Shown here: positions 1-20,442 of the stretch, piece by piece
How the letters are laid out: each line of letters begins with the position of its first letter
How positions within the stretch are numbered: the first letter of the stretch is position 1
Origin: Jaapia argillacea MUCL 33604
Taxonomy: Eukaryota > Basidiomycota > Agaricomycetes > Jaapiales > Jaapiaceae
DNA: 22,457 nt
Reading direction: 5' to 3'
Assembly (NCBI GenBank): GCA_000697665.1
Contig: KL197722.1
Coordinates: 864,950 to 887,406, forward strand
Notes under the pieces: model-generated
Told to the model about the DNA's origin: nothing
Database searches by the model: none
What the model saw: the letters and a program-made list of their open reading frames with translations, nothing else
Made by a program: the position numbers and the translations under genes

Positions 1-207
1 TCACAGTTTTATCCAGGGAACCTGAAGCAATGTGCTTGCCATCTGGTGAGAAAGCAACAGAAGTCACACAATCAGACGTGGCCTTCAATGGCCAGCAACA
101 AGTCTCCTGACTTTGCATCCCACACTCTCACAGTTTTGTCCCAAAGAACCTGAAGCAATGTGCTTGCCATCTGGTGAGAAAGCAACAGAAGTCACATAAT
201 GGGAGTG
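1..207 (-). repeat. Two near-identical WD40 repeat units with 1-nt insertions
   Basis: Positions 1-127 and 128-207 (second unit cut where the array begins) align almost base for base, with a period of 127 instead of 126 (42 codons). Each unit encodes VTSVAFSPDGKHIASGSL. In the first-translated unit there is one extra base within 139-142, where family sequence LDKTV should follow and the frame slips. In the next unit an extra base lies at 77, just after the E-G-H triplet. The two insertions together leave all later repeats in the third frame. Very similar tandem WD40 units are typical of fungal NLRs whose repeat arrays evolve by concerted exchange. Sequencing error in G runs is an alternative cause. 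Confidence 0.85.
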
Positions 208-3200
208 GCCCTCAATTATAGTTTGAATTGATGGCCAGTCCAATGCTTGTCCAGTCTTCAGATGTAATCTATGAGGGTAAATTGATCTATAATGATTTGC
301 AATTTGTGATTTTGCTGGTGCAAATGATAGTACTGATACATAAATATGTGGAATACTGTGTTTAATTGGCACGGCAAACACTGATATCAATTTCAATGCA
401 TCGATCACCATGTTTTGAACATTTATATCATAGTCCTGACAATATTTTATCATTTTACTGCATATACAGAAATAGGCCTATGCTTACCTCAACCCAGGTG
501 GCCACTTGTGTCAGTGCCATAGAACACAGCTGCATTTTCTTTGTCAAACTCAAAACCTCCAACCAAAACAGAAATTTTGTATAAATAAATCTTTGTATAT
601 CTTTTATTATTCTCTCTTCATATTGTGTTTGGCCTAGATGATCTGCCCAAAAGTGACATGCATAGTGCAGCTGTGAAGGTATATATTTCTGTACTAATTT
701 GTTGATATCTGGAACATCATCATTACAGAGGTGCGATGTCTGCAACCTGCATATGTTAAAGCATAGGTTTGACTCCATAAGTTCAAGACATGCAATACAC
801 AGCTGTTGATTTTGAACACTTGCTTGGAAACGGTACTCAGGAGGACATTTCTGTGAGCAGGTCAAAAAGTCAATAAATGATTGATGACTAAATTGAAGTG
901 TAATGGAATCTGCAGCTAGGACAGATTTTAGTCCTCTGCAGACATATTCCATCATTATTGGTAAGATCACTGAGGGGTAAAGTGCCAATACATCATTTGA
1001 TGAGACTGGAGTTTTGACTGCAATTATAGTTCCGGTGATCATTTGAATTGCCTTTTTCACCTTTGGACTAGGATTCTTGAAAGCTATCTTCAAAATCAAA
1101 CAATAAAGTTCATCTATACTGCCCTTGGAGAGATTTCCTAGTAGAATCTGCTCCAGCTGCTCTGTAGGATCTCCTTCCTTCACAAAATCCACAATGGTTT
1201 TTGCCCAGATAAATAGCCCAGCAGCTTGATCGGTGAGGGCTTTTATAGCTTCCACTCCAGGCCATTCTAAAGCTGATAGAGAAGAATATTCATTTCTCAC
1301 TTCTGCAAAAGAATTGCTCAAATAGAAACCAATATCAGATGCAGATTTGAGAGAAACACTACTGCCAGTGAATAACTCAATGGAAACTACAGAATCTGAA
1401 ATGCTCTGAAATACTTGTGATATATCATTCTCAATTCGACTAGTAACCAAGAGCTTAAAAGAAGGTTGAAGATAAGACCACTGTTTTATAGTGTTTAAAA
1501 GATGTCGTCGATATATAGATCGAGAACCATCCAGTCCTCCACATTCATCTAATGCATCAATGACCACAATAGGCATTCTTCCAGCAGGAAATTCTACTTT
1601 TGAGGATAGTGGAAGTCTCACCAGCTCATTGAATAGCTGAATGATGTTTGCTGTACTAACAACTGCTTCATCCTCCTTCAACTTTGCTACAATCATATTT
1701 CTGGCAGTGGGATAAATCTGAGACAAATCATAGGCAACTCTTCTCCACAAAGCAGATGGAGTCTGACTCAATGCCTTGCTTCTTTCAAAGAAAAAAAAGG
1801 ATCCTAATCGATGTGATGCCCTAAAGTGTGCTACAGCACTAGATGCAATAGCTGATTTACCAGCCCCTGGAAAGCCATTTATCCAAAGAATATTAGGACC
1901 AGACAAATCTTTAGCCCAGTGTTCAATCTGTGTGAAGATATCTTGTCGTGTATTTTCCATACACTCTTGTGCCCAAATTGTGTGATCAATATCCATAGGC
2001 AACAAAGCTTTGAGTAGATCATCATCTTTTGAAGATTCTGTAGAATTCAATTTTAGAACTTTGTTTGTCTATAATGAATGAAATTAAAACAAACCCAGAT
2101 TAAATAACACTTTTTCTATTGAAACATTTGCATGCACAGCTAAGCCTCGATCAAACTGCTGCTTGAATTGATTAAAGCGCTTTGAAAGCTCAGTAGCTAT
2201 ATCTGAAGAAGATGAAGAGACAATAGAGTCTAGCAATTGAACTGTTGAGTTGATATTAGTAACCTCAATAGTATTTTGATATCTGTAAACAAACCTCCAG
2301 CACTCTGTGAGTTATATTGAAGGATAAAGTTTGCAGTCTCCTCCATTAGAGGGCGAACTTCTTTAAGAGCCTGTATAAACTGTGCAAGTCTTGCAAACTG
2401 TTCAGCATCTTCAATATAGCCCAGTATCTGTGACATATTCTCAGCAAGATCTAAAATAAGCTTGTCACATTGCTGCTGGTCTTGAAATTTCTAATCCACA
2501 AACAGAAGGTCAGTCCAGTCACAAAACCAACTCCTCCCCATGTACCTTATACACAACTCCAACAGCAGCAAGAACAGCTTTGGCAACAGGATGCAGCTAA
2601 TCATGACTGAATTTATATTCTATATTGATTGGCTATGACATGCTTACCTCACTGACAGCAGTCCCAACATTCAGGACAGTCTCAATAAATGTTTTTGATT
2701 TGCCGAGATGATCAAGCACACTCTTGCGCTGGCCAGTTGCCCGAATTGCACTGCTCAAGGTCATTCCCAGAGTATTAGAGCCCTGTGGAGCTTTGAATTG
2801 AGCAAACCATTCAAAAATTGATGCCCCAACTCACAGGTGCAATATCAATCATGATGCTTGGATTATCCCTAAGTTTGTACTCTGACGGTTGTCGATGTAA
2901 ATATGACAGCAACCAGAGACGTGAAAAACACCCACCAGTTCCAAGCAAGGATTGCTGCAGGTTTTGGTTCATGAAAACACCCTCTGCGAGGACTCTCGTG
3001 GGTCGAAGAGACCGATGTTCACGGAGCTGAATGACGAGTTGAGACCCTCCCTGAAGTGTCCTATCGTCGATACTATTCAATAATGGCCAGATAAAGTAGA
3101 GAGTGAAGGCATGGCTCACAGAGGAGGACTCAACTCCCGTCGCAAGCGAGGAAGCTTGGGGCCAAAATGCTGCTTGATGAAATCGGCTCCACCAATGAGG

Positions 3201-3238
3201 AGCTTGATGGATAGTTTATGGTCTACCACCGGATCCAT
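1..3238 (-). CDS. NACHT-WD40 NLR (STAND) receptor, 3' end cut by window and frameshifted
   Basis: Cytosolic NTP-dependent signalling ATPase of the fungal NLR class (non-self recognition or cell-death signalling is the family's known or proposed role). My exon model on the minus strand is 3238-3120, 3072-2936, 2881-2835, 2782-2648, 2596-2546, 2490-2295, 2241-2111, 2068-488 and 435 onward; all junctions are GT...AG, introns are 42-55 nt, and phases agree. Residues 1-101 look like a degenerate C2 domain (LSIKLLIGGADF near the N-terminus). Residues ~102-272 form a helical region that resembles the N-terminal segments of agaric NLRs. The large exon (273-799) is NACHT: Walker A GFPGAGKSA at 1850-1876, Walker B PIVVIDALDECGG, sensor-like LLVTSR, then the ...TPHIYVSALPF-like linker (here IPHIYVSVLSF) that precedes WD40 repeats. 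The start ATG at 3238 follows an in-frame TGA. Junction 2882-2935 keeps frame whether or not it is spliced. No in-frame stop occurs before the WD40 frameshifts, so the gene may be functional or only recently broken. Confidence 0.85.
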
Positions 3239-3949
3239 GAGGACGGTGATACCTGAGTGCCTGCGATTGAGCCCGATCGGTCGTGATCACCCGCGAAAGA
3301 GGCGCTCACCGGTTATCTGGATACTGGATGAAGAGTCAGCGTCTCTGGGATTTACAGATTTGCAGACACAACTTACGAGCTTGGAATGGTTGTATCGGTG
3401 TTGGAAGCCATTTGGAGATTGTTGTTGTTGTTGTACAGAATCGATACTGAAGTCAGTGGTTGTTCTGTGCAGAGGAAGGAGTCGCGGGGGGACGGTGGCG
3501 TTTGATGTTTGGCGCCGAAAGCGGTAACCCCCTCCAACTTCCTCCTTCCAAGTTTCGCCATTCGCCATTCCTCCCAGCCTCGCTCTATCTTACCTTCCTT
3601 GAAGCATCCTGAGCATCTAAATGCGACGACGTATCTTCAGGACCATCTCACTATGGTCCCCCAGCCCTTTACTGCACAAATGCGCCTGGCACGACAGACT
3701 CCCAGTCCTTTGCTGAATGTTGTCGAGCCAGGTCTCCGTATCTTCAGTGAGTGGGCGCATCCCATTCAAATCTCGTCGAGGCTTCCGTTGTGTATGTTTA
3801 GATCTGACCTCTACGTTTCATTCCCGTACCAGCCTAACGAATGATGTTGACGCGATAACCTTCAAATCAATCGGACCACCAGGAAGATACCCTCGAGCTT
3901 ATACCACAATTGTGCCTTCCTCCAACGTAATCTACACCACACCTTTTTC
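3239..3949. other. Upstream region of the NLR gene, no gene seen
   Basis: GC-richer DNA between the NLR start codon and duplicated segment A. It should hold the NLR promoter, but I see no convincing TATA element. A short (GTT)n microsatellite lies at 3421-3434. The short open frames here match no family I recognise. Confidence 0.4.
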
Positions 3950-5560
3950 CTACTCGACCCTCGATCCTCGAAGCAACCCTTGCAGCTCCAAACCTCACGC
4001 TCGCGTCCGTCCGACTCGAATTGTCCTGCAGCAGTGGGCGCGTGACACTGGTTGAACGATTCGAGGTGCAGGCGTGTCGAGGATCGAGGATGTATGGAAT
4101 CGGACCCCATACAACCCTACCTCCCCATTCCTGCTTCGCAAAACAAATCACTTGGTCGATTCTTAAGGTCTGTTCGACAAGGAGGGGAAGGAGAAAGAGA
4201 CCCAGCCTCGTAGCTTTCCAGCCCACGATCTCGTCCGTCCTTGGGGTGATAGCATTCTGAAGCTCGCTGCGAGTTTCGAGCTCGGTTCGCGTGGTGCTGT
4301 TGTTCGGTCATGTCGAGAAGATGGATCGTTCGTGCTGCGTGGAGGAGGCGAACGCCTCGACAAGGACGAACATTTGGTAAGTTGATTTGCCCGCTCAACG
4401 ATATCTGACTGACCGTGACTTATTCGACTGTGTTCTGGCTACTCGCGTCGCCATTGCACCTCGCATATCCACTTCAATACCAAGACCTCCTTCCACCATT
4501 CCACTGAGAAAGTCTCGGTGGCGACGTTGCCCTCGTCGTTGACGAGAGTAGTATCGGTTGGCTCCGTTAGTTGCATGCCGATTTGGGGTAAATCGGTATT
4601 GGGCAAGGGTCTAGCCGGTGTGGCGACATGCATGTCCCTGAAAGGACGGAGCACTTTGGGTGCTCTCAGAGTGTTAGCGCCTGAGGCATGATCAACGGCT
4701 GATGTGTGAAGAAGATTGTATGCATTGGACACTCGATATGTCAGTCTGTATACTCTTTGTTCCCGATGACTGGGTCTAAAACCCTCTACGACCTAGGAAG
4801 CGTTCCAACTTGGTTTCCGCTGTTAGCGTCTTACCAAACGTGGTGTTGTGTCTTCACGATGGCTCACTCCTGATTAATTCGTTCTTGGCTTCTGATGAAG
4901 CCAGCCTATTCGCCGAACGAGACTGTCTCCCTCTTTGTCTTTGAGTCCACTTGCTCGTTGTCAACGAGACTACAGACATCCCTTTCCTCAAACCTCCTTG
5001 AGGAAGAAGACGCGTAGGAAGTGAGGTTTTGGCTTTCTTCTCGGGAGTTTGGATGGATTTGGATGTTGAGGGTGCAGTGAGGGAGGGAGAGAATCAGTTG
5101 GACGACAAGAGTTAGTATGAGGGTGGATATCCATCGTAGTGTTCAAGGGAAAGAGGCGGCGGTCATCGAGACCGGGAGCCACAAAGAGATAGACAACCAA
5201 AGATATAGGAGATGGACATCGTATTCTTACCTGGTCGCGTTATGGTATGTAATTCGTCGTCGATGCTCAGCGCTCAGCGCGAGTAGACGCAGATATCCAA
5301 CTGTTATTCTTTTTAAATCATGCGATCTGCACCATTATCATAGTCGACGCCTTTCGGTGCACAGCGTCTTGAGTAGGTTCCCGCGTTCAGCTACCTTGAT
5401 GGAGCGCAGGCGTGAATTCCTCGGGAATCAATGAGATCAAGGTATATTACATTATACGTGAACGAGGGTCTGACCCTCTCGGGGAAGGGGGTGCAATGGA
5501 GCGGCCCAAGAACTTGTGGGTGAACCTCGGTGCCTCGCATATATACCTAAAGTGGGGACG
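3950..5560 (+). repeat. Diverged direct duplication, copy A
   Basis: Aligns along its length with copy B (6755-8310) at an offset of about 2760-2815 bases. Anchors shared by both include CTCGATCCTCGAAGCA (A near 3957), GGTAAGTTGATT (4376), CTTATTCGAC, CTCGCGTCGCCATTGC, AGCCGGTGTGG, GACGCGT and AAGGTATATTACAT (A near 5437). Copies differ by many substitutions and small indels, so the duplication is old. The orientation is direct. The LSM4 pseudogene lies between the copies. Confidence 0.8.
4167..4691 (+). pseudogene. Unidentified intron-split gene fragment in copy A
   Basis: Two open segments in matching phase: 4167-4376 (70 codons, ending ERLDKDEHL) and 4431-4691 (87 codons, containing HHSTEKVSVATLP and WGKSVLGKGLAGVATCM, then TGA). 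They flank a 54-nt intron with a strong GTAAGT donor. The expected CAG acceptor reads CTG here, while copy B keeps CAG. Copy B preserves the same frame before the junction (REDGxFV then GG) and the same 54-nt intron, which supports real coding ancestry on this strand. The opposite strand is also open in places, so strand choice is not certain. A further in-phase stretch with VLPNVVLCLHDGSLL near 4830-4870 may be a later exon. I do not recognise the family. Confidence 0.45.
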
Positions 5561-5617
5561 AACGTACCTTAGTTCGTCGTGCCCCGTACACAACCTCGCA
5601 AAAAATAGACGAAGAGC

Positions 5618-6393
5618 TTATGAGCCTCGACCGCGTCCACGTCCGCCTCTGCCTGGTCCCCCGCGCATATTTCCTCTGCCTCCTGTGAGCCGGCGTTAGT
5701 GGGTGTGGACGGGGATGAAGGAGGGGGAAGAACCTCATTGCGGCATACCTCTACCTCCTATGAAGTGAAAAAGGGGGTTAGTGTTGGGGTTTGAGTGTGG
5801 GGAGGAAGTAAAAGAGATGGGAGAATCGACTATGCTATTTGGAACGCGTGGCGATGGGGACCAGATGAAGATGGCGGAATATTGCAATCGACGTTGCCTC
5901 TGGATAATGTGATTCCGGCCTCCGCCACACGACACTACACCACCCTGCTCGAACCTCAAGGCGAAAAGGCGAAAGCGAAAAGAGAGAAGGAAGGAAGGCA
6001 CGTGCCTCCTCTGCTGGCGTTGCCGCGTCTTGCGTTCCTACCCATCTCTCTCGCTGTGTTGTTCGTCTTTGACTGCGTCTAGAAGAGCATCTGGGACTCT
6101 GATGTATTTGATCTGGGGAATTGAAGTCGCAAAGTGACAGCGGCAACCTACAGTGCTACCACGAATATAACAGTCTTTCACTTTCCAAAACCTCCCAGCG
6201 TCGGGAAAAGTTTGGAACTTTCGGAGGGCGATGTTCAGAAAGTTGTAGCAGTTGACGGGTTGAGGAGACGGGCGTTGAATGTTTCGCCGCTTTTGAGTTT
6301 GACCAGCTGTGGGTAGTTGGGTTAGCACGTGAAGAGGGAAGAAGGACCATGGGTTTGTTCTGTGTTGCGTTGAGGAGGGAGGGGTAACTGCAT
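5618..6393 (-). pseudogene. LSM4: LSM4 pseudogene (U6 snRNA-associated Sm-like protein)
   Basis: LSM4 is a subunit of the Lsm1-7 (mRNA decay) and Lsm2-8 (U6 snRNP) rings. Reading the minus strand from ATG 6393, pieces of the Sm fold appear in order across introns: LLNATQNKPM (after a 2-nt deletion that breaks exon 1), LVKLKSGETFNARL, VNCYNFLNIALRKF, RFWKVKDCYIRGST, IKYIRVPDALLDAV, GRNARRGNASRGG, GRGMPQ and the Gly/Arg-rich tail RGGPGRGGRGRGRGS ending at TAA 5618-5620. Introns are at 6307-6347, 6113-6151, 5758-6001 and 5683-5733. Lesions: the exon 1 deletion, a net frameshift within 6152-6306 around the NARLL/VNC join, a frameshift after KDEQH, and TGA at 5735-5737 where RGG-type arginine is expected. 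Retained introns rule out a processed copy. An intact LSM4 must exist elsewhere, because it is normally essential. Confidence 0.85.
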
Positions 6394-6754
6394 TCTCACG
6401 TCAGAACTGCGGAGACGAAGAGCAAGGAGGGACTGACCATGGTGGCAGCTGTTGGCAGGAAGAAACGAGGAGGAAGGTCGAGTACGCAGCCGAAATGGGA
6501 AGTGGAACCCAAACCCCAGCTCGATTCGCACCTGATTTGGGCAAGCAGTTTCCATATCCAGTCAAGCTGCCGTCTTCGGAGGCAACTCCTTGTAACTCTC
6601 TTCCCATGTCCTCGGTTCCCGTGCCTGTTCTCCTTGCAGCAACCCAAGCATGCCATGCGCCTCGCATCCCTGTCCGCCCTCGCCTGGGTTCAGAAGTCCA
6701 CGAAATCGTAGCAACCCACCCTCCTCCGACGTAACGACCCAACACCTCATTTCC
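6394..6754. other. Spacer between LSM4 pseudogene and copy B
   Basis: A plus-strand open frame at 6495-6734 starts with MGSGTQTPARFAPDLG and ends in PPPT. It could be a small gene or a first exon of the copy B gene, but nothing supports it beyond being open. The region just above the LSM4 ATG has a splice-like AG (TCTCCGCAG) at about 6405-6415 on the minus strand, so LSM4 may have had an extra tiny first exon. Confidence 0.3.
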
Positions 6755-8310
6755 ACTCATTCTCGATCCTCGAAGCAGCTTCGCACCTCGAAACCTCAGG
6801 CTCGCATCCGACCACCTTGAAGTGTCCTACGAACTCTTGGCACCCGGCACCCATTCTTCGGTCGGGTGGAGAAGTTGGATGATTCGAGGTACAGTCGGGT
6901 CTCTCCTTCTTTTCCCCGCGTCCTCCTTGTCTATCAAACATGAAGAATCAAGAGGGGATATGTTTTGAAGGAAAGTGGGCTGTAGACTCTGGGTCTGTTT
7001 CGGTCACCAGTATGATAATTCCATACGTCCTCAATTCTTGGAGCAACCTCGTATCTTTGCGGCCCCACGATCGCGCCCATCCCCGTATTCAGCCTTCACG
7101 TCGATCACGTCGAGAAGACGGACGATTCGTATCACACGTAGGAGGTGATGCCTCGAGAAGGCAGGTCGACCAGTTGGTAAGTTGATTGATGTCTTCGATT
7201 GTATCCAACATATCATCACTTATTCGACAGTCGTGCAGCTGCTCGCGTCGCCATTGCCCCTTACATATCCATTCCAACGCCATGACTTCCTTCCACCCTT
7301 CCACAGAGAAAGTCGTAGCGGGCGACACTGCATGTCATCGTTGCCGAGAGTAATGTCGGGCGGCTCCGTTGATTGCATGCCAATATGGCATACATTGGGA
7401 TTCGGGCAAGGGTATAGCCGGTGTGGTGACATGCATGACGCTGGAAGGATGGAGCGCTTTGGGTACACTGAGAGCGCAAGTACCTGAGAGGCATAATGGA
7501 TGAAGAAGACTGGATTCCTCGCCAACTCGACGCTAAACCATACGTGAGTCTATAAGCTTTGTTCGCGATGGCTGAATTTAAAACTCTACCACTTAGGGAG
7601 TGTTCTATCTTGTTTTCTACTGTTACGGTCTTACCAAACATGGTGCCGTATCTTCATTCCGTTGAAGCTCGTGGAACGAACTTCCTCCCGCCGTGGGGCT
7701 TGCTCGATTGTGTGAATCGATCCTTATGGGGGGTTGAAGGTTTATCGGTGACGGTTACGGCGATGAAGGAATGTGGAGGGAGGTGATGAGATTCAAGTCA
7801 CCTTTCTTGAGCTTCCATCGAGGAAGACGACGCGTCGGAAGTTTCTTCTTGGATTGAGGTTACAAGGAGGGAGGGACAGACTCGTCTTGACGATAAGTTG
7901 GGACGAGGTGGATATCCCTCGTGGCGTTCATGAACGAGTGTGGGAGACGGCCAACCAGAGATGAAGGAGATGGCCATTATAATCATATCCGTACCTCGTC
8001 GTGTTCTGGTATGTGAATCGTCATCGATGCTCAGCCGGATTAAGTGCATATATCCATCGATTATTCTTCTTACAATCAGCTACAGCATCAGCACATGTGA
8101 CGCCTTCCGATCATAGTATCTTGAGTCGATTGATGTTCCTATGTTTGAGCGAAGGGTTGAGACGACGAAACTTCGGTTGATTCCTCAGGGAATGAAATCA
8201 AGGTATATTACATTTGTACGTGAATGGGGTACAATGCTCTCCGGGAACAGGAGGCGTGACACAATAGCATCCAAATCGTTACTTTGCCATATAAGTCGAC
8301 TGGAGTTGAG
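6755..8310 (+). repeat. Diverged direct duplication, copy B
   Basis: Second copy of the ~1.6 kb segment described at 3950-5560. Shared blocks keep the same order. The right end of both copies has a short AT-rich motif (CATATATACC in A, CATATAAGTC in B) that could be an old promoter element; this is only a suggestion. Confidence 0.8.
7089..7353 (+). pseudogene. Unidentified intron-split gene fragment in copy B
   Basis: Counterpart of 4167-4691. The first exon remnant ends at 7176 (frame SRREDGRFVSHVGGD...). The intron at 7177-7230 is 54 nt with GTAAGT donor and CGACAG acceptor. The second exon (7231-7353) reads in phase through RRHCPLHIH and FHPSTEKV, then hits TAA because of a small indel relative to copy A. 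Both intron length and exon phase are the same in the two copies. Function is unknown. Confidence 0.4.
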
Positions 8311-9352
8311 GAGAAGATGTGGGGGAGAGTGAACGCTCGATAGATAGTAGAAAATGTGCGAGGGAAAGGTCGATCTGCACGTCCGATTCGTCCTCGCCTT
8401 CTGCTGGGTCTCCGATGTAGGATAGCATACGTACTCTGCGAACATATTAGTCAAATTCTACCCAAGCCGCTGATGGGAAGGCTGAGCGAGAAGATAGTTT
8501 GGGAGGTTCAAGTCACTTGGCAAGAACCGTCGTGGAGCAGCAATTCATATCATAGCTGCCTACGCCGAGGCAGTCAAGTAGAAAACCTATGATAGAGTTG
8601 TAGTCAGTATCTCCCGTTATTCGAGTAGGAGTGTCAAAGAGCGGGACTGGTTCAGAGAGAAGATAACGTCAAATGAAGACACATTCATCCAAGAGCGAAC
8701 CGATTCCATGGGGATTCGGGACCCCTCGTCGCGAAAAATAATGACACTTGGGATTGTCTTTCATGAAAAAGGTTGGGGAAAACTTGGGAAGACACACCAT
8801 TGAGAGAAACGGGCAACAAGGGACTTTGATGAGATCCGAGGTTAAGGAAGACCTGAAAACACAACGTACATACTCACCTCGTTGTCCACCACGCTCTAAT
8901 CCTATTCCAAGAACCCCAGTCGATGGGTGTAACAGCGGCCGCCTTGATTCTACTTATCGATCTGGGAATTGTGGTGGCTGTCAATCCCACCAGAAGAAAC
9001 AAGTAATGTGGAGCTCGCGTGGCGCGGATTCAGCGTCTCACAAAACAGCGCCACGTGAACCAGCTTCGTGCCAAGTCGTTGGTTTTGGTGGAAGAACAAG
9101 CGCTCGAGGAAGATTGCTATTGATTGGCACGGCAAATAGTGGTGGATGCGAGAAAAGCGTAGGAATATCTTGAATTGGGTGAATCGCGTTGAAGGAGTAC
9201 ACAACGGCAAGAGACAATCGAGAATGTAGGATTACAGTCGACATCGAGTAATGGTGTAAGGTCCAAAAGATCACATTCGGGGGGTCCGGGGGGTCGCTAC
9301 CTCGAAGTTCTGCAGTCAAGAAGACTCGAACAGACGACCCGTCGTCTGCCCG
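8311..9352. other. Region without a recognisable gene
   Basis: Several short frames are open on both strands. The most gene-like signal is a minus-strand donor (ACGAG then GTGAGT) near 8877 after a stretch reading FLLVGLTATTIPRSISRIK, which would be a hydrophobic segment. I could not extend it into a gene. The stretch next to the F-box end (9240-9310) has GGGG runs. Confidence 0.3.
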
Positions 9353-10393
9353 TCAACCACAAAATAAACTCCAACAGCCTTCGCCACCCGACAACCGATC
9401 AACCCAGAGGCCCTTCGCCTCATCAAGTGTAAACGCGCTTTCATACGAGGACACGAAACTCTCCGCAAATATGACCCTACGTTCGGAAGCCTGAGCATCG
9501 GATGCAAGCTTCTCGAATGCGAGAAAGTCAACTTGACGAAAAGGCTGAACGTATTATAGTGGGCGAGGACAGCCTCCTGGAGGAGCGGACATTGCCTCGA
9601 TGAGCAGATATTGCAATGTAGCCGGGAACCGCAAGGGACTGCGGGTCACGGTTGCATGGAGTGGAGAAGTCGTGGGCTCCGGGGGTGATTGAATACCCAA
9701 GGCCGTGGCGAACTCGTCTGCAGGTAATAATTCCTTCCAAAGAGCAGATATACGGAGATGGATGAGGAATGGGGCGAGGGGATGTGTCGGCCGGAAAAAG
9801 TCAGACATGAGGGTCAGGCCTTCAGCGCTCGCGTAAACCAAATGGAGGCGCCGTAATGAGGGGAAAGGAGGTGAGAAAGGAAAGGGTGAATGAAGGAGCT
9901 CACGCCCAACTTCTGGCTTCTTCTGAGGTTAGGAGATGTGTAGACTCAGGTCTCGCAAGTAGGGAAGTGGAATCTCGTGCATTCACCGAATGATCGTGTT
10001 GGGCGACATAAAGAGGGTGAGGGTAGTGAGGGATTGGGAGACCATCGTGAGGTATGTATTCAGAGTGGCCGCAGGCGACGTCAGAGGTGCCCGCGATCTT
10101 GAATTGCAGAAGTGCAAGATGGTGTGCTGAACGTTACACCGATGTGCTTGTCAGGTGCAAAGCATTTGGAAAAGCGACCGAATCTTTGTTCGATTCGAGA
10201 CGTCGAATGTTGCCCGAACGGCGCGTAGCCGAATTGTATCCGATACCTCGCGGAAGAATCTGCATACGAGAGGCAGATTGGTTCCCAGATGTCCATCATC
10301 AGAGATGATCTCGACGATCCTTGACCATAGTTCAACGGGGCATCGTTGTATCGCAGAGATTGTGCCGGGGGACAGGGTTGTCGAGACGCTTAT
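9353..10393 (-). pseudogene. F-box protein pseudogene (basidiomycete F-box family)
   Basis: F-box proteins recruit substrates to SCF ubiquitin ligases through Skp1. One minus-strand frame holds family sequence over the whole span: PVELWSRIVEIIS and LPLVCRFFREVSD (F-box), SQSLTTLTLF, PLPYLRDLSLHIS, SLRRLHLVYASAEGL (leucine-rich middle), then EAKGLWVDRLSGGEGCW near the C-terminus, a common ending for this family. The natural stop is 9353-9355. The frame is broken by TGA at 10151-10153, TGA at 9983-9985, TAA at 9929-9931 and TAA at 9554-9556, with no net frameshift. A TAG (10394-10396) precedes the first readable codon; an ATG in a good context (GCCATGG, 10401) is in another frame, so the true start is shifted or lost. 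All these stops can arise from C-to-T changes (CGA, CAA, CAG). Confidence 0.75.
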
Positions 10394-10401
10394 CTACCAT
10401 G

Positions 10402-10753
10402 GCAAAGGTTAAGTACATTACGATCGATGTTTGTTGGGTAAGCGAGAATACCTGATCTGCCACGACCTCATTAGAGCCAACCGGTGATACCATTTAGTCA
10501 CAGAATTGCGACAAGAGCGATTCAAATCGTTCGCTACAGGGCGTCGCCAGTTGTTCGAGGGTATGCTGTAGCTGGCTTTACAGCCTGTATCCATCATATG
10601 TAGCGCTTGTCGCAGTGTGAACAACGAGACGACTATTTCCAGCGGACACTGCCTTGGTGGAGACATGAGGCTACGAGACAGTCGTGACAAAAGTCACACA
10701 TGTGACCAGATACAGTAAGTGAGGATCCGAATCACAGCTCATGTCTACATTCG
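10402..10753. other. Spacer between F-box and DPH5 pseudogenes
   Basis: A minus-strand open frame (10418-10690, starting MSRLSRSLMSPPRQCPLEIV) is present but I do not recognise it, and it has no supporting splice or start context. It is the natural 3' flank of DPH5. Confidence 0.3.
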
Positions 10754-11409
10754 TCAATCTAACGCACATCCGTACACAGTCTCTGCGACTCTCCACCAGT
10801 TCACCTTATTGATAGCAAACTCTTGTGCATACTCAATCTCGAGAGGATGTACTCTCTTGCCCACAATGACCAAACTAGGCAAGGGTTCGCCAAACGCCTC
10901 TGTCGGGTGACCGTTGAGTTCGGACAATGTCCCACTAACGATTTGTTCATGCTTGTCGCCGCTGCCAACTCGAGATACCGCAATGGCTAGGGTGTCCAAA
11001 GGTGAAAGAATATACCCGACGTGGAAGGTACGAACCCAAATGGATCGCCGACTATGAGCAATGCAACATCTTCCTTTTCCACATCTCTAAGAATCTCATC
11101 GCTTTCTAACTCAACCATATCATGATTGGCAATGATCAGCTGTTTCCCGTAAAATTCTTCCTTGCAAACCGATCATAAGCTCAAATCCAAAGCATCCAGC
11201 ACGAAAAGATGGAACTTACCAGCCTCTCCTTCTGAACCATGAGAATACTAGTATAGGCCTCCAGATAGACTTGTGAACAGCCCTTGACCACCTGGAGAGG
11301 CAAATTGACAGGGAATGAGCAGCCATGTGGTGAGGTCTACGAAAGCTCACTTCAAGTCCTCATACTGTGATATCCTTTCACATAGTCCAAGTCCGATGAT
11401 GTAGAACAT
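10754..11409 (-). pseudogene. DPH5: DPH5 pseudogene (diphthine methyl ester synthase), internally deleted
   Basis: DPH5 is the AdoMet-dependent methyltransferase that builds the diphthamide precursor on elongation factor 2. Start ATG 11409 gives MFYIIGLGL. After a 4-nt deletion the frame DITV-stop-GLE follows, where family DITVRGLE has arginine, so TGA replaces CGA. Intron 11292-11350 (59 nt) leads to exon 11220-11291 (SQVYLEAYTSILMVQKERL). Intron 11161-11219 (59 nt) leads to an exon with EEFYGKQLIIANHDMVE and ALLIVGDPFG. About 36 nt later the sequence jumps to DTLAIAVSRVGSGDK and LPSLVIVGKRVHPLEIEY, ending normally at TGA 10754-10756. From known DPH5 proteins (~285 residues), roughly 125 residues are missing. 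That stretch includes the GATTHTDL segment and most of the AdoMet-binding core, so this copy cannot be active. Confidence 0.9.
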
Positions 11410-11630
11410 TATGGTCGACTAAGATCAGCAAGTTGAGAGTGAGATGGTGGTGGCACATTATCTGATTTGAGTTTTCGATGCCCAAGCTAACCACGTGGTC
11501 CACTAGCATATCAGCACAACCATCTCCCACTACACGTCCTTACCAACCCCGAGCATGCTGACCCCTCCTTCGCTCATCTCTCTCATTCTCAAGCCTCTCA
11601 AATACCCCAGCCCCAGTTTGAACCACCGTA
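11410..11630. other. Divergent spacer between DPH5 and plus-strand F-box pseudogenes
   Basis: 221 bases between two outward-facing start codons, so it would have held both promoters. It is C-rich near the plus-strand start (CTCATCTCTCTCATTCTC), as is common for fungal core promoters without a clear TATA box. I see no coding sequence. Confidence 0.4.
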
Positions 11631-13638
11631 ATGAGTCCAAACATCCCAGCTGACATCATCTACCCAATCATCCAAAACCTTCACAGCGACCACGATAGGA
11701 AGGATCTATATGCTGCGACACTTGTTAATTGGACTTTCAATCGGGCTGCCACTCGTTTGCTGTATGCTATGCTCGATTTGAGGAGTATCAAGGAAAAGGA
11801 TGGGAGGGTGAGCCATGTCTCTTTTTTTTGTGAGAGAGATTGGTCGGGTTGGGGCTCGAGGGGGTCATGGTTCAGGGTCTGGGAGTGGGCGATCTTTAGG
11901 GATTAAGGGCGGGCGTGGGTGTTGAGAGATAAGAACTGACTCTATGATGTGCCCGTATAGCTTACAGTCTTACACCCAGCTACCACTCTCCTCGCCAAAC
12001 CAGAGTTGACACGATATGTCCGTCACATCCACGAAACAGGTCTGTGTCCCTCCCACCCACAATCCACCACATCAGTTCTACATCCACTTGAATCCATTGC
12101 TGACTCCGCTCTGCACAGGTGACATACACAAAACCCTAGCCTTCCTCTCACCAGCAACATCAACCTCCGCCCTAACCTCTCTCACGCTCTGCACGAACCT
12201 CCAATCATTCTCATGGGTAGACAATACCTTCTCCCAAGGCCGCTCCCAAGTTCTTTTCATGTCGTTCCTCCTTGTCTTGAAGACATTGCATTCACTGCAG
12301 GATCTTACTATCAGGACTTCAGGTGCATCGGTTCTCTTCCTTGTCGATACGGAACGACTGATATTGATACGGGGGTGTCGGTGATTTGGGGAATGAGGTT
12401 TGGAAAGAGTTGAACGGGATTGGAGGGCTGAAATGAGTTAGTGTTTGGTGCATGGAAGGACCACCCAGAGTCCTTCAAGGTTGGACAGGGACACTAAGTG
12501 GAACCCTCGAAGAACTCGATCTCGGAGTACATCTCTTCCCCTTTTCCCCGCTTCTCCCCTCCTAACGTTCCACCCTCCCAAAACAGTGATGTGCAGGTGT
12601 CCAAGCAACAGTCCTCATCTCCGTCGTCCTCCAACTCCCCCTCCTCACAATCCTCTGTCTCAAAGGCGCTCCATCAGCAGCAATACTGACAATCCTAACT
12701 TACCTTCCCAATCTCCACACACTCGACACTGAGTATTTCTCTTCGGGGATATATCAAATTCTGAGTAAACCATGACCACTTTAAAGAATTTGGTGATTCG
12801 GACTTCGTCGATGGACGTAGATGGGCCTGAACAACTTTGGTCTTGGATACTTGGTTTGGTTCTGGGGCGTAAGGGTGGGAAAGGTGGGGAGGGGCAAGGG
12901 AGTTTGGAAACATTCACTCTACACACCTTCACTGTCCTAGGTCAAACCAGCATGCCTCGCAGTTTCATGTTGGGTCTGGCAAAGATCCACAAGGAGACGT
13001 TGAAGATATTTGGTATAGGAACTACACAGTTGAGTTTGGATGATGTGGAGTTTCTGTGCGGGAGATTGAAGAGGTTAGAAGAGTTGGTTTGTTCGACTTC
13101 TAGTTTGGATGCTGTGAGTACCTCCCTGGTCACTTTCATTTGTATCCTTTCGTCTTTTTGTCCCATTGCCAAAACATTGATGTGTGTATGGGGTCCCATT
13201 CCAGGCAGCTATATCCCAAGCAGTATCAAAAGCTTCCCACCTGCAAACTCTCAAACTTCAAGTTCTTTCGTTAGGTCAAGGGTTCTTGGGGAGTGGTGGT
13301 GATTATGGCTACCATAGTGCTGGTGGTTATGACTTTAGTGGTAGTGGGGGCAGAAGAGGAGGTACTTATTATTATCACACCCATTCTGATCTAGGAGTTG
13401 TTAGTTTGTTTAGGGTAGAACATGCATGGGAGATGATGGTTAGATCTAGGTTGAGGGTTGTTTGGGTTGGGGCTGCTAGATTCAGAGTAAGTTTTTGGTT
13501 GTCAGTCTTGCAATTACCTATTGATATTACCTTATGCCTGCCTTGTTCTTGTTGTAGGGTCAGTGGGTACCCAATCCTGATGGGAATAGGGAACCTAGCT
13601 TGGAGGTCAGTTGTATGGTGGATAGAGACAGGAAATGA
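11631..13638 (+). pseudogene. F-box protein pseudogene with six exons
   Basis: Same broad family as the minus-strand copy but a different member. Exons: 11631-11807 (MSPNIPADIIYPIIQNLHSD... F-box), 11961-12039 (LTRYVRHIHETG), 12119-12526, 12587-13113, 13205-13486 and 13558-13638 with stop TGA. Intron phases match throughout. Family motifs include LQDLTIRTS, WCMEGPPRVLQGWTG, TLEELDLG, CAGVQATVLISVVLQLPLL, LKGAPSAA, LPNLHTLDTEYFSSG, LVIRTSSMDVDGPEQLW, EHAWEMMVRSRLRVVWVG and FRGQWVPN. Breaks: a frameshift between ~12330 and 12380, TGA at 12434-12436 (family basic residue), TGA at 12587-12589 (first codon of the exon, family RCAG), and a 1-nt loss near 12770. Exon 5 has a low-complexity Gly/Ser/Tyr insert (13290-13380). 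The first intron is long (153 nt) for this gene. Confidence 0.85.
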
Positions 13639-14441
13639 TTCAATTAGGGCACCCTCCACTGCAAATAAATCAGTAAGGAAGGTATTTCTGTTTTGTTTAA
13701 GTACTAAGGAATGAGAAAGAGAATCAGTGATTGCAGACTGAGATTTGTGACCAAGTTACTTTGTTGAATGTTTTTGTGGACTGAATGTGTAAGATGTTGG
13801 GTATTCCCATGGTATTTGAACTCTGACCAAATGCACACTTTGTGACTTCTTTGTTTACTCTCTTTTCTTTAGTCTATTTTTTTTTGCCATGATGGCTACT
13901 ATTCCCTAGACTCAGCCCTGTATCTTATTTGTTTATCTGGTATAGAATATAGTGTTCTCGAGGAATAGGTTTCTTACCATTGGTTCATTGTGTCCAAAGT
14001 TCCCAGCTGCAATTACTAGGCTGAATTACGCTCATTTTCTCACTTTTCTTCCACACACACCAAGCAAATCTATAGCCATTGGTCAACAATGTATCCTGCA
14101 TGTTGGAACCATTCCTTTGCCTTCTCAGTAGTTACAGTACTACCAGCCTCAAGCAATTCCATATCTGGATCCTCACTCTCCTGGACTTTACATTAATTCC
14201 TCCAAAGCCAAGCCTTGACTGGCCAAAGTTGTGAACCAGAGCAAAGACAAGCAATTCAACAACTTACTGCAGCTAAAACTGTCCTTAATGGGATTGAATT
14301 AGGGGGAGTATGGAGGTGGAAACATAAGAATGTAACCTGAATTTTTTCTTTTACATCAGAATTGAAAAAACAACCTTATCTGAAGCTTCAAAATCACATA
14401 ATGCTTGGCTCTTGTGAATAGCATAGTTGTTGAGAATCAGG
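13639..14441. other. AT-richer spacer, probable old retroelement debris
   Basis: No gene recognised. A purine run AATTAGGGGGAGTATGGAGG near 14296-14315 resembles the polypurine tract just before a copia-type 3' LTR. A TGTTGAGAATCAGGTTAC stretch starts at about 14427. These are only suggestive; I cannot define element ends. Confidence 0.3.
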
Positions 14442-14624
14442 TTACTTTGTTCTTCTAAACGAGGGTTCATGGCTGGGAGCTACACCAAATGTGATAATCA
14501 TCCAGTTGTCCTTGCTGGATCCATCAACAGCCATAACCTCACTTGCCACAAAATTTGCTTCCACATGCGCCTGCCATGCTGTATGCTGCTCATCATCCTG
14601 CTCCACAGCCGCCTTTTGGAGCAT
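14442..14624 (-). mobile_element. Possible Ty1/copia gag-pol remnant
   Basis: A 60-residue minus-strand frame reads AHVEANFVASEVMAVDG then SSKDNWMII and PSHEP. This resembles the copia region just before the protease, where DNW(I/M)(I/V)DSGAT(S)H is typical. The catalytic D-S/T-G is not readable here, so it would be decayed. It could also be chance. Confidence 0.25.
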
Positions 14625-14671
14625 CTGTAGATGAGGTCACAATTGCAAATGTTGTCATAAAGAGCTGAAAG

Positions 14672-15068
14672 TGTTATGAACCATGCCTCAATAAGACTAT
14701 TTTCATTTCTACTTCACTTTGCTTCACCATCTGACTATGGACTACAGACTGTGGACTGCGGACTATGGACTCCTATTTCCTTTGACTCACCTTGACTCCT
14801 TACTTACTCATCATTGCTGCAGATTACAGACTGTGCCTACTATGGAATGTGCTTCTACCCAGTATATATACCTGCCTGTATTCGCTAATAGTCCCCACCT
14901 TGTTCGCTTTGTCAATACAAGTCTTTACTTACAACTCTACAAAGTCTGACTTGGTCTCTGTCTGGTTTTCTCTCTTTATCATCCTCACACCACCTCACTC
15001 TGCATTGCAACCTAAGTACCATCAGAGAAGTACACTGTCTTAACTTCAGTACTTCATTGAAGTAATGA
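14672..15068 (+). repeat. 5' LTR of gypsy element 1 (approximate ends)
   Basis: Starts TGTTATGAAC, which matches the TGTTGTGAAC start of the LTR at 20443. The right end is placed before CTTTAACA, which also directly follows the other LTR. A TATA box (AGTATATATACC) lies near 14859-14870 and CT-rich sequence follows, as in fungal LTR promoters. The canonical CA end is not intact, so the right end is uncertain by some bases. It contains a microrepeat of (A/T)CTATGGACT-like units at 14730-14770. Confidence 0.5.
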
Positions 15069-15166
15069 CTTTAACACTTGAACAAGATCTCCCTTCTACT
15101 TACCTTGCAACTTACTCTAACCTCGTTATCAAACAAAGGTTATAGAGAAGTTAGACAACTACCACC

Positions 15167-17041
15167 ATGCCTTCCAATACTACGATTCATCCGATCTTTG
15201 CCAGTCTCCTCATTATCATCATCGACTTCATCATCAACCTATTGTTTTGGACCACTATCCAGAAAATTGATTATCTCTTGTTACCCATGATATATTCATC
15301 CTCCTCTTCATGCATTTCATCAATCTTAATTTACCATCTACTTTTGTGTTGCTCTTGCCAAAATAGTAAGACAATTGGAGGAAGAATACATTACTCAGAA
15401 CCTATAAATTGGTTATCTCTCATGAGATAACCTCTTCATGTCAACACAGAAGTCCTACCACCATCCAGTAGATTCCTTACCCTTCCTGATCTTTGGACAC
15501 TTCCCTCTCTTGCCCAAGTCCTCCAAGATCTAGCAGGACACGAGGAAAAACTCACATATGATCATATCTACAACACTCTGTGCCTCGATGGAAAACCTAT
15601 TGCAATTTGGACAGGACCAAATGAACCTGGATATCGCTTCTTACCAGTAGAGAAATATCCTCCCCATGAAAATCTGCTGAAATTAAAAGAATATCTTGGT
15701 CAATTAGCCAAGCCAGGTCCTTCGATTCCATGAGTCACCGAAGAACAGTCAAGATGAGGAGTCAGTGAATCTTCTTGATCACCATGAAGCACACCAACTC
15801 CTCTTTCCTTAGAAGCTCCATGAACATCTACTCCATTAGCAGCATTTGGAGTATATACTCCTATTGCAACTGCACCAGAGCAAGCATTTGCAGGAACATC
15901 TTCCATGTTCGTCCCACAGATACAGGAACCAGCTCCACAGCATCCAACTGGTGTATCTATTGTTACACCTATCCCTCATCACTTTGGGTCATACCATCCA
16001 CCACCAGCTTGATCTCCATCCTCTGATCCACCTAGGGGATCTCCTGACCCTAACCCAGACAACCAACCTGAAGATTCAGACAACAATGTGGCAGGAGATT
16101 TGAAACAACCACAACTGTCTCCTCCTACTCCCTTTACTGGAGATAGGAAAAAGACAGCCAAATTTATCTTGGAAACCAAGCTGTTCATTGCAGCTAAACC
16201 AAAAGATTTCCCTACCAAATTTTCCAAAATTGCCTTCATTCTGTCCTATATGAAGGATGGACCAGCAGGATCCTGGGCAATGAATTGGGTCAACAAGTAC
16301 AATCCAGACACAGAATCACTCTTGAATATCAAAGAATTCTACAAAACCCTCGAAAAAGACTTCGCAGAAATTGACAAAGGATGATCTGCTTGCACACAAA
16401 TCCAAACCCTTAAACAAGGAAGGTTTTTGGTTGATTCCTTCACTGCTGCCTTCAACAAACTAGCAAGGCACACAGGATTTAACGATATAGGACTTATGGA
16501 AGCCTATAAATGTGGGCTCAAATGGGCAATCCTCAAACAAATCATTAAACTACCAAATCCACCAGAAAGCCTAGCCTCTCTACAGGATATGGCTGCCAAA
16601 TTCAAGTTATTAGGAGAAGCAGCAGCAGCAGAGAAAACCTGGCATGAAGGGAAGGGAAAGGGACCAATTTATCCCTCAGCCTTTCAAACCAATTGGTGGG
16701 CTCCATCTAGGGACTACAGTCAAGGAGTCCCTATGGATGTTGATGTCGCCAAAACCAAGAAATGATTTAAAAAACTGACTCCTGAAGAATGACTTGGACT
16801 TCAGAAGAAAGGAGCATGTTTCTTTTGTCATAAACCTGGTCATTTCTCTGGACAATGCCCCTTGAAAAAGAGCAAATCCATCTGAGCCAGAACAGCTGAT
16901 GCAAATGAAGAAAATGCACAGCCTAGTTCTATCATCGATCAAATCAAAGAGCTGGTCACTCAGATCCCAGAAAACGATCAAGGGGAACTTTTCATGGCCA
17001 TGAAAGATGAGTTCTCCAAATCAGGTTTTCAAAGCGCCTAG
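15167..17041 (+). pseudogene. gag of gypsy element 1, with eleven internal stops
   Basis: One frame (625 codons) runs from ATG 15167, in a strong Kozak context (CCACCATGCC), to TAG 17041. The capsid region includes TPFTGDRKKTAKFIL and MKDGPAGSWAMNWV; a CCHC zinc knuckle (CFFCHKPGHFSGQC) lies at about 16817-16860. Internal stops are TAA 15428 and TGA at 15731, 15755, 15776, 15785, 15821, 16010, 16382, 16763, 16790 and 16883. Ten of eleven are TGA. At 16763, 16790 and 16883 the flanking motif KK-x-FKKLTPEE-x-L expects arginine. The N-terminal ~85 residues are unusually hydrophobic, perhaps from C-to-T drift. Confidence 0.8.
15411..15432. other. Perfect 9-bp hairpin inside gag
   Basis: GGTTATCTC - TCAT - GAGATAACC, a perfect stem with a 4-nt loop, overlapping the TAA stop at 15428. 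No function is evident. Confidence 0.6.
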
Positions 17042-18377: not shown

Positions 18378-18718
18378 AGGCTGCATGTGCAGCAAGAGCC
18401 TGCTACCAGTGTTCATGAATATAGCAGTTTCACATCAACATGATGAAGAAAATCAGGGGAATGCATACCAGGTTCTTTCTTGAACAAGTTAATAACAGCC
18501 AGTAGACAGTGGCACCAACAATAAATTCTTATGGCACACAAACGAATAATATACAATGACAGTAGTTCAACCTACGCTGACAAAGATGAAGTATGAAACC
18601 TGACTGGCAGGTGGAAAAAAGGAGGCAGGTGATCCTGTAGGAAAGGGTGGTGGAGAGGCGAGCACATGGCAACCGGTCCAGGAATGGTTCAATTATTTGG
18701 TCTTCTTGGGACACTTGA

Positions 18719-18826
18719 TAGTCTCACATGGCCAGACCAAGCATGTGTGTGGAGTTTGAAACTTGGGAAACACCCAAGTTGTGCTCGGTCTGGAGACTTT
18801 TGGCATGTTTTCCCTGGATTGGTCAC
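18719..18826 (+). repeat. Left inverted-repeat arm of the insertion
   Basis: Imperfect inverted match to 19344-19488. The core 18790-18826 (CTGGAGACTTTTGG...GGTCAC) pairs with 19344-19381 at about 34 of 38 positions. Flanking blocks GGAGTTTGAA and TAGTCTCACA also pair. The arm folds on itself: AACTTGGG-AAACA-CCCAAGTT sits inside CCAGACCAAGCA ... TGCTCGGTCTGG. Confidence 0.7.
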
Positions 18827-18888
18827 AATTGTAACAAATTTGTGACCCAACGCATAATTTCTTTGGAGTTTGTCTGTGATGTTCCTTC

Positions 18889-19221
18889 ATGGCTGGGGCC
18901 GTTGACTACACTGACCTGTTTGACAATGACGACCATGCACCCGATGACTCTGAAGGCAAAAGTGATTGGTCCGAATCATCCTCAGACTGCAGTATGGAGG
19001 AGATCCCAAATATCATCAACTCAGAAATTGAGGAGGTGGAGGCAGTCCAGTTGCAGAGAACACACCAGCTCAAGGCCAACTTAGAGGGCGAGGAGAAGCC
19101 TCCCAAGGTTTTGGATGAATTGGCAGTTATACTTCTGTCTGAGTGGCTTTCGACCTTGCAGCGTCGAGATTGGAATACGAGCACTTGCGAATCTCGTCAT
19201 GCGATGAGATACTCGACATGA
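18889..19221 (+). CDS. Small acidic protein of unknown function inside the insertion
   Basis: A 110-residue intronless frame starting MAGAVDYTDLFDNDDHAPDD, strongly acidic in its first half (D/E/S-rich, CSMEEIPNIINSEIEEVEAV) with a helical, charged second half (KPPKVLDELAVILLSEW, then RHAMRYST). It sits exactly between the two inverted-repeat arms. The ending vaguely resembles N-terminal segments of transposon-linked proteins in agarics (a ...RYARTxLM... motif would be expected), so it may be a truncated transposon ORF. This is a guess; I do not recognise a domain. Confidence 0.4.
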   Translation: MAGAVDYTDLFDNDDHAPDDSEGKSDWSESSSDCSMEEIPNIINSEIEEVEAVQLQRTHQLKANLEGEEKPPKVLDELAVILLSEWLSTLQRRDWNTSTCESRHAMRYST

Positions 19222-19343
19222 CTATAAAAGCACAGAAATGTCCAGAATAGCCAAGTATGGTCTGAAGCAGCAGGATTTCAACAAGAAATCAACAAAATAT
19301 AAATTGCTGTAAACAGAGCAAAGTAGGTCACCAATCATGTGCA

Positions 19344-19488
19344 GTGACCCAATCCAGGGGAAACACACCAAAAGTCTCCAGATGTTCTATGGGTGTGGAA
19401 TTTCCTGGTTTTTTGTTTCTGCTTCAAACTCCAAGATTCATGATCTCCCTCTCCATCTGCACCATAGAACGGATGGCTTGTGAGACTA
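19344..19488 (-). repeat. Right inverted-repeat arm of the insertion
   Basis: Reverse-complement partner of 18719-18826. It is longer (about 145 versus 108 bases) because of indels between the paired blocks. Confidence 0.7.
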
Positions 19489-19980
19489 GACACTTGAATG
19501 AAGGACAACACAAATCGAACCGGTTGCGGCCCAAGAAGATGTCAGCTCCTAGCAATTTGGCCATGGCAAGGGGAAAGCCTGAGGTTGACCAATATATGCC
19601 TTCCAGCGCGCAAACAACAATGGGACTAGATACAAAGTAAATGACTGTTCCTGCAGTGTGCACCCTGAGCAGACTCGGAGGAGATCAAACAAGGAATGTT
19701 GTGGCTGTGGGGGAGGTTGATCAACAACAAGTGTTGGGCTGTGGGGAGGATTTCAGTGCCATGAGACAGGTACAATCCACGGAGATTTGACATGAGTGGG
19801 GGTAACAGGATGGTTGTTAATGACCACAGACAATCGTCGTTGATGAGGATGGCCATGGAAACACCCTTGAGTTTGAAGCTCAGACAAAAGAAATGTCTCA
19901 GCTTTATAATCGAGCGAAAAATTGGCAGAGCGTCTGTAAAGTATAGAACAGTACAAGACCCACTACTAATGTAGTGGGAA

Positions 19981-20442
19981 TATCTGAAATAAACTCAAAA
20001 ATGCTAAAGTTTATACAACAATGTTCAAATCAAAGACAGAGATCAATGGAAAGTGGCCTTCAAAACAAATTGTGGACTATTCGAACCTACAGTCATGTTC
20101 TTTGGTCTTACCAATTCACCAGGCACTTTTCAAACTATGATGAGTGAATTATTCAAAGACCTTATCGATTGAGGAGTTATCATCATATATTTGGATGTCA
20201 TTCTCATCTTCATGGACATACTAGAGGAACACAGGAAAATAATGCATGAAGTTCTCTGCATTTTAGAAGAAAACAATATTTTCCTCAAACCAGAAAAATG
20301 CACTTTTGAAATGTCAAAAGTCAAATACCTTGGGGTTATCATCTCTCAAAACCTTGTAGAGATGGATCCTGTCAAGGTGTCTGGTATCATTGATTGGCCT
20401 ACCCCAAAAACGGTCAAAGAAGTTCAATCCTTTGTAGGATTC
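19981..20442 (+). pseudogene. Second RT part of gypsy element 1
   Basis: Reads DRDQWKVAFKTNCGLFEP, MFFGLTNSPGTFQTMM, IIIYLDVILIFMD, FLKPEKCTFEMSKVKYLG and DWPTPKTVKEVQSFVGF. This is RT palm through thumb. The catalytic YLDD box reads YLDV, TNRGLFEP has Cys for Arg, and TGA at 20170 interrupts it. The domain is therefore dead. The frame is cut by the LTR at 20443. Confidence 0.85.

Follow-up and report, generated by a model that had tools for sequence, protein, structure and literature searches.

Regional loss of CpG dinucleotides as the probable source of premature TGA stops at a contig end in the basidiomycete Jaapia argillacea

The last 22.5 kb of contig C14 (KL197722.1, positions 864,950 to 887,406) in the Jaapia argillacea MUCL 33604 assembly (43.7 Mb in 95 contigs) hold remnants of LSM4, DPH5 and two genes labelled as F-box genes, an open NLR frame and a gypsy retrotransposon; this stretch of 22,457 nucleotides is called the window below. 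Comparison with paralogous copies suggests that the TGA stops which interrupt the remnants and the retrotransposon probably arose by regional decay of methylated CpG dinucleotides, with the location of the DNA in chromatin determining where decay occurs; the methylation is something we infer from the pattern of change. The initial annotation of the window had read the stops as the footprint of C-to-T change, caused by deamination at methylated CpG or by a process like repeat-induced point mutation (RIP) or methylation induced premeiotically (MIP) acting on duplicated DNA, and had contrasted them with the NLR frame. Of this interpretation, C-to-T change at CpG is retained, whereas the duplication trigger and the NLR contrast are not.

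Most of the window between positions 1 and 13,699 is repeated DNA. Copy B occupies about C14:842969-856627. Copy C comprises the right part of the block only and is found at C14:808555-813930, and copy D, with the NLR and LSM4 genes, is on contig C29; further NLR copies occur on C46 and C54. The copies in the window appear to be dead, and better-preserved relatives exist: the minus-strand frame, interrupted by four stops in the window, is open for 349 amino acids in B and 346 in C, and LSM4 reads intact in D. These relatives proved suitable for alignment of the pseudogenes to their paralogues, the check that the initial annotation had proposed. The six TGA codons named outside gag are all present (Table 1), and each is CGA in every aligned sister, except at 9983, where B has CGA and C has CGG. 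All six therefore align to arginine codons, and the observation of the stop codons is confirmed. The dominance of TGA among the stops is weak evidence by itself, because TGA already accounts for 50-55% of all stop triplets in the local sequence; the paralogue alignment of the TGA codons, unlike the TGA share, provides strong evidence.

Table 1. Coordinates of the premature stops and of the regions discussed in the text (window numbering)
Feature	Position	Strand	Remarks
TGA in LSM4 remnant	5735..5737	-	CGA in B and D
TAA in minus-strand frame	9554..9556	-	CAA in B and C; C>T at CpA; absent from the initial annotation
TAA in minus-strand frame	9929..9931	-	CAA in B and C; C>T at CpA; absent from the initial annotation
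TGA in minus-strand frame	9983..9985	-	CGA in B, CGG in C
TGA in minus-strand frame	10151..10153	-	CGA in B and C
TGA in DPH5 remnant (DITV*GLE)	11360..11362	-	CGA in B and C; dph5 exon matches
TGA in plus-strand F-box-like remnant	12434..12436	+	CGA in C
TGA in plus-strand F-box-like remnant	12587..12589	+	CGA in C
gypsy gag frame	15431..17036	+	10 internal stops, all TGA
NLR open frame (NACHT/NPHP3_N)	455..2068	-	Pfam NPHP3_N 2.9e-27; frame CpG observed/expected (o/e) 0.17
CpG-rich 5' flank of NLR	2950..3520	none	kept in 5/5 related copies
Gradient of window-copy CpG loss	8851..13699	none	6% to 67% left to right; logistic slope z 5.4
Duplicated, CpG-normal LSM4 arm (internal control)	4272..8850	none	CpG o/e ~0.8-1.2
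CpG-depleted, gypsy-bearing contig end	13700..22457	none	CpG o/e 0.13-0.43 per kb; copy C homology ends at 13,699

Several details of the gene remnants need qualification. The minus-strand frame had been credited with two TGA stops, which are real, but two CAA-to-TAA changes (9554 and 9929) bring the number to four. The name F-box is itself weak for these genes, since the 349-residue frame of B has no Pfam match at E up to 1 and the plus-strand gene exon, in copy C, reaches an F-box E value of only 0.033, below the cut-off; the two plus-strand TGAs can be compared with copy C only. At the LSM4 stop, a possible splice donor (GTATGC) would place the codon in an intron, and copy D has a later possible donor (GTAAAT) after its CGA codon, so that the exon reading appears at least as good as the intron reading tried first. 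All dph5 matches found in the genome belong to the three copies on C14 (window 10720-11534, C14:810561-811374 and C14:853810-854619); the window remnant carries a 4-base deletion and lacks the central exon, the exon for model positions 88-173 being found in B and C only. Because of this deletion and exon loss, and of indels in LSM4 that are common to the window and B, CpG decay is not shown to have been the first lesion.

Polarised paralogue alignments strongly support C-to-T change at CpG, and do so for both strands. A change was counted as unique to a copy where two other copies agree, all polarity counts being confined to columns with ungapped neighbours and the copy-unique and gradient counts also to columns with agreeing neighbours. 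In these substitution tables, which the initial annotation had proposed, CpG transitions exceed other C-to-T changes: window-unique changes affect 21/206 CpG sites against 21/563 other cytosines in the minus-strand F-box-like block, and 10/43 against 8/159 in DPH5. The same holds for a copy B fragment beside the gypsy insertion of that copy (10/28 against 10/168) and for the NLR in copy B (17/103 against 56/1072). In contrast to the window remnant, the B and C copies of DPH5 have no unique CpG loss at all (0/23 and 0/24), and this pair keeps 48 CpGs and has changed five; in the plus-strand block, 42 CpGs are lost in the window and four in copy C. A second aligner gives an agreeing CpG result.

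In the right-hand part of the block, between 11,006 and 13,699, CpG has become TpG at 52/162 sites, compared with 43/965 for other C-to-T changes (odds ratio 10, p 1e-22). By preceding base, and counted over more sites than these, TCG is the least affected context (20/141; ACG 23/91, GCG 20/91, CCG 20/81), and it is lowest in the gypsy copies too, which does not match the TpCpG preference of the RIP-like mutation of Pucciniomycotina. The CpA signature of Neurospora is likewise not seen in the F-box-like, DPH5 or gypsy comparisons, where CpA does not rise above CpC and CpT (8/185 in the minus-strand F-box-like block; 0.158 against 0.182-0.230 in gypsy). The changes are thus read most likely as deamination of methylated CpG, not as RIP of the Neurospora type.

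The distribution of CpG along the window suggests that scarring depends on where the DNA lies and not on whether it is duplicated. Per kb, CpG o/e is 0.13-0.28 at 1-3,000 (the NLR), 0.8-1.1 at 3,001-11,000, about 0.55 at 11,001-13,000 and 0.13-0.43 from 13,001 to the window end, with 0.92-1.05 in three reference stretches of 2 kb from other contigs. When copy C is taken as ancestral, the fraction of CpG lost in successive bins from 8.85 to 13.7 kb is 0.06, 0.11, 0.14, 0.22, 0.33, 0.20, 0.35, 0.30 and 0.67 (8/12 in the last bin), while other C-to-T changes do not rise (z -1.9) and CpG in copy C has no trend (z 0.6). The LSM4 arm, although duplicated, has only a mild excess (CpG-to-T 34/414, other C-to-T 62/1284, a ratio of 1.7), compared with a ratio of about 7 at 11.0-13.7 kb. 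Copy B contains a CpG-poor insert of 1.15 kb; the fragment that separates this insert from a gypsy copy is scarred, but DPH5 beyond the insert is not.

These observations bear on two other explanations. The first is a RIP- or MIP-like process, triggered by duplication in the sexual cycle, which mutates CpG or methylates and then mutates it. All the scarred DNA is indeed repeated, CpG-only signatures in basidiomycete repeats go by such names in PMC4352252 and PMC4014442, and the gypsy copy of the window has decayed beyond what its branch length predicts, as if from a burst. Duplication, however, does not appear to be the targeting rule, as had been proposed, because CpG is normal in the LSM4 arm despite its duplication, the B and C copies of DPH5 are spared, and loss climbs along a single copy toward the transposon-rich end; in addition, the gypsy copies form a continuum of CpG content rather than an all-or-none pattern. 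Action along duplicated DNA as such, as expected of Neurospora-type RIP, was thus not found in the LSM4 arm or in DPH5 of B and C, and we consider this process unlikely. The second is relaxed selection, under which the window pseudogenes would reflect nothing more than the usual tendency of CpG to mutate, and the region would carry no mark. In favour of this, the frames of B and C appear open and could be subject to selection, and a slight hypermutability of CpG is seen in the CpG-normal arm as well. Yet other C-to-T changes stay flat (4-8% per bin, 2-3% in three bins) across the whole climb of CpG loss, and the ratio of the two kinds of change depends on location, which makes relaxed selection quite improbable.

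The gypsy element at the contig end shows the same type of change. At least 51 gypsy matches were found in the genome (40 of 93 candidates were scored), and 14 near-full copies were aligned with that of the window. The initial annotation had counted eleven stops in gag, ten of them TGA; the ten internal TGAs stand, and the TAG at 17039, counted as the eleventh, seems to be where the frame normally terminates. Nine of the ten TGAs are CGA in at least three of the 14 other copies, and the tenth, at a codon that is AGA in the majority, is never CGA. Among gag codons that are CGA in the majority, 5/6 have become TGA, as opposed to 0/27 stops at codons that are CAA, CAG or TGG in the majority (Fisher p 2.5e-5). 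The missense changes named previously fare unevenly: the protease asparagine replaces an aspartate found in 13/14 copies and is a CpG transition, whereas arginine-to-cysteine change in the reverse transcriptase (RT) is only partly supported, the cysteine at 18320 being arginine in 8/14 copies and that near 20071 arginine in 7/14 and cysteine in 3/14, with a CpG at the first base in 6/14. From reading of the sequence, the RT region also appears to be split at 18390-20000 by about 1.6 kb of other sequence between two RT pieces.

Across all gypsy pairs, the C/T fraction is 0.52 at CpG, compared with 0.16-0.23 in other contexts. CpG o/e in the 15 copies ranges from 0.21 to 0.91 and declines with terminal branch length (rho -0.58, p 0.02). 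Genome-wide, 99/111 internal stops in matches to the reverse-transcriptase domain RVT_1 are TGA (150 matches, of 178 candidates, were scored). For two other families the TGA share is not significant against the 50-55% background: 7/9 internal stops in 55 NLR matches, and 10/13 in the matches to Tet/JBP (PF12851). The latter family, with 25 matches in the genome, is an expansion that often carries TGA stops.

The position of TGA at arginine codons could also mean that TGA is read as an amino acid, or that the TGAs are base-calling errors at methylated CpG, given that base callers can err at modified bases. Against this, the minus-strand frame ends with a TGA at 9353 in all three copies, the sisters keep CGA, CpG in the window element has been lost as TG and CA alike (83 and 62), and the dead copies contain deletions as well. 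Recoding or sequencing error is therefore hardly credible.

Some results weigh against regional methyl-CpG decay, or limit its reach. No significant unique CpG excess is seen for LSM4 (3/63 in the window), for the NLR in the window (3/61) and in D (2/55), or for the minus-strand block in B (9/201) and in C (9/193). Two of the four stops in the minus-strand frame lie at CpA, and in the D copy of the NLR changes at CpA are modestly in excess (26/439 against 18/598, p 0.03); the corresponding counts for the window NLR, 19/415 and 14/572, do not differ significantly (p 0.07). Copy C turns CpG-poor at its right end, so that part of the right-hand depletion is ancestral and older than the copies. 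A general spreading of decay from elements into their flanks was rejected, since two decayed gypsy copies (L013 and L024) have CpG-normal flanks (o/e 1.10 and 1.09). Flank and element CpG o/e are uncorrelated (rho 0.13) in 14 gypsy copies with at least 800 readable bases; the flank of L013 has an o/e of 0.42 in the 200 bp beside the long terminal repeat (LTR) and is normal beyond, and that of L024 is normal up to the LTR. Finally, the gypsy copy of the window has the lowest CpG o/e of the 15 (0.21), far under the value predicted from its branch length. Some feature of the contig end, perhaps nested elements or subtelomeric chromatin, would add to the depletion there.

The initial annotation had set the NLR gene apart as unscarred. 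This contrast does not hold, as the frame is strongly depleted of CpG and under purifying selection. Internal CpG remains in 8/538 codons, six of which are CGA, and the codon at 1520 has changed from CGA to TGA in the copies on C29 (L048) and C46 (L049). The ratio of nonsynonymous to synonymous divergence (dN/dS) is 0.28-0.33, up to dS 0.94, in six of ten pairs (the four L049 pairs were left out for masked bases). The open frame of the window NLR is thus better explained by selection than by the process being absent there, because it is CpG-depleted and has a dN/dS of about 0.3. All five related copies, on four contigs, pass from a body with a CpG o/e of 0-0.34 to 0.66-0.99 upstream, with a single change-over at about 2.7-3.0 kb, close to where the gene presumably starts (2.85-2.97 kb); in the C46 copy (L049) the CpG-rich stretch is about 0.6 kb long, with CpG-poor DNA on either side.

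This arrangement raises the tentative possibility that one NLR clade is gene-body methylated under purifying selection and has an unmethylated, CpG-rich promoter, that is, a CpG-island-like start. Two findings argue otherwise: CpG o/e is normal (0.93) in an unrelated NLR on C7, and four of the five copies have in-frame stops at aligned codons, some of them near the exon end. Alternatively, the clade may simply be a repeat in heterochromatin. Gene-body methylation with a CpG-island-like start is said to be absent from most fungi (PMC7862722, PMC13297926), and among the matches listed in one library no title fitted the subject of CpG-depleted or body-methylated genes in Agaricomycetes or of NLRs with these features. 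The C7 gene rules out the notion that all NLRs are CpG-depleted. The WD40 end of the NLR (1-215 in the window, and in copies B, D and L050) is a tandem repeat whose unit number varies between copies, and the DNA to the left of three NLR copies (C14 before 864950, L047 and L049) reads as N.

The most likely sequence of events begins with transposon-rich chromatin, in which CpG cytosines would be methylated by the Dnmt1-type enzymes of the genome. Matches to DNA_methylase (PF00145) exceed the cut-off on C2, C4 and C5; only the C2 match was compared with Dnmt1 chains, to which it aligns. The 5-methylcytosines would deaminate to thymine over generations, and the methylated state may extend a few kb into dead gene copies, reaching these while sparing the DPH5 copies that look functional. 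TGA stops would then accumulate in dead genes and elements as CGA codons for arginine change, and an NLR under selection would lose most of its CpGs and still keep its frame open.

CpG decay of basidiomycete repeats is already known. In Rhizoctonia solani AG8, also an Agaricomycete, CpG-to-TpG hypermutation is commoner near repeats and has TGA as its expected nonsense product, as seen here; there, changes were scored between nuclei and in genes and repeats alike, whereas here paralogues give the polarity, an arm that is duplicated yet CpG-normal serves as control, and one copy shows a gradient along its length (PMC4014442). Deamination does not 'leak' as RIP does, according to the same source. 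Basidiomycete transposons show a CpG-only mutation signature together with a Masc2-type Dnmt1 (PMC4352252), and Tricholoma matsutake has CpG hypermutation and lacks rid and dim2 (PMC6980582). Jaapia resembles these in its CpG signature in transposons and its Dnmt1-type methyltransferase, but transposon copies were scored in those studies, and here host gene remnants by the transposon-rich end were scored too. With RIP in Neurospora and other Ascomycota the window shares C-to-T change in repeated DNA that makes stops, but the context is CpG, not CpA, and most of the duplicated DNA escapes except close to the transposon-rich end (PMC4352252). The TpCpG-biased RIP-like mutation of Pucciniomycotina such as Microbotryum is similar in its CpG context and in occurring in a basidiomycete, but TCG is the least affected NCG here (PMC4014442, PMC4352252).

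Whether CpG mutation in basidiomycetes is driven by duplication, as in RIP, or controlled by chromatin location is an unsettled question. A multi-copy gene block in which one end of one copy is most scarred separates duplication from location by sequence alone, and supplies polarised sites for methylation sequencing. For annotation, this means that pseudogenes rich in TGA may be a sign of methylated DNA in genomes of this kind, and that a gene whose frame is open, like the NLR, can be equally exposed.

Other repeats in the window include a diverged repeat that flanks LSM4 (4272-4856 and 7171-8214); in copies B and D, each stretch matches the opposite arm at about 65-73%. Close to the contig end (21900-22457), a short AT-rich motif occurs repeatedly and is possibly a subtelomeric or centromeric repeat.

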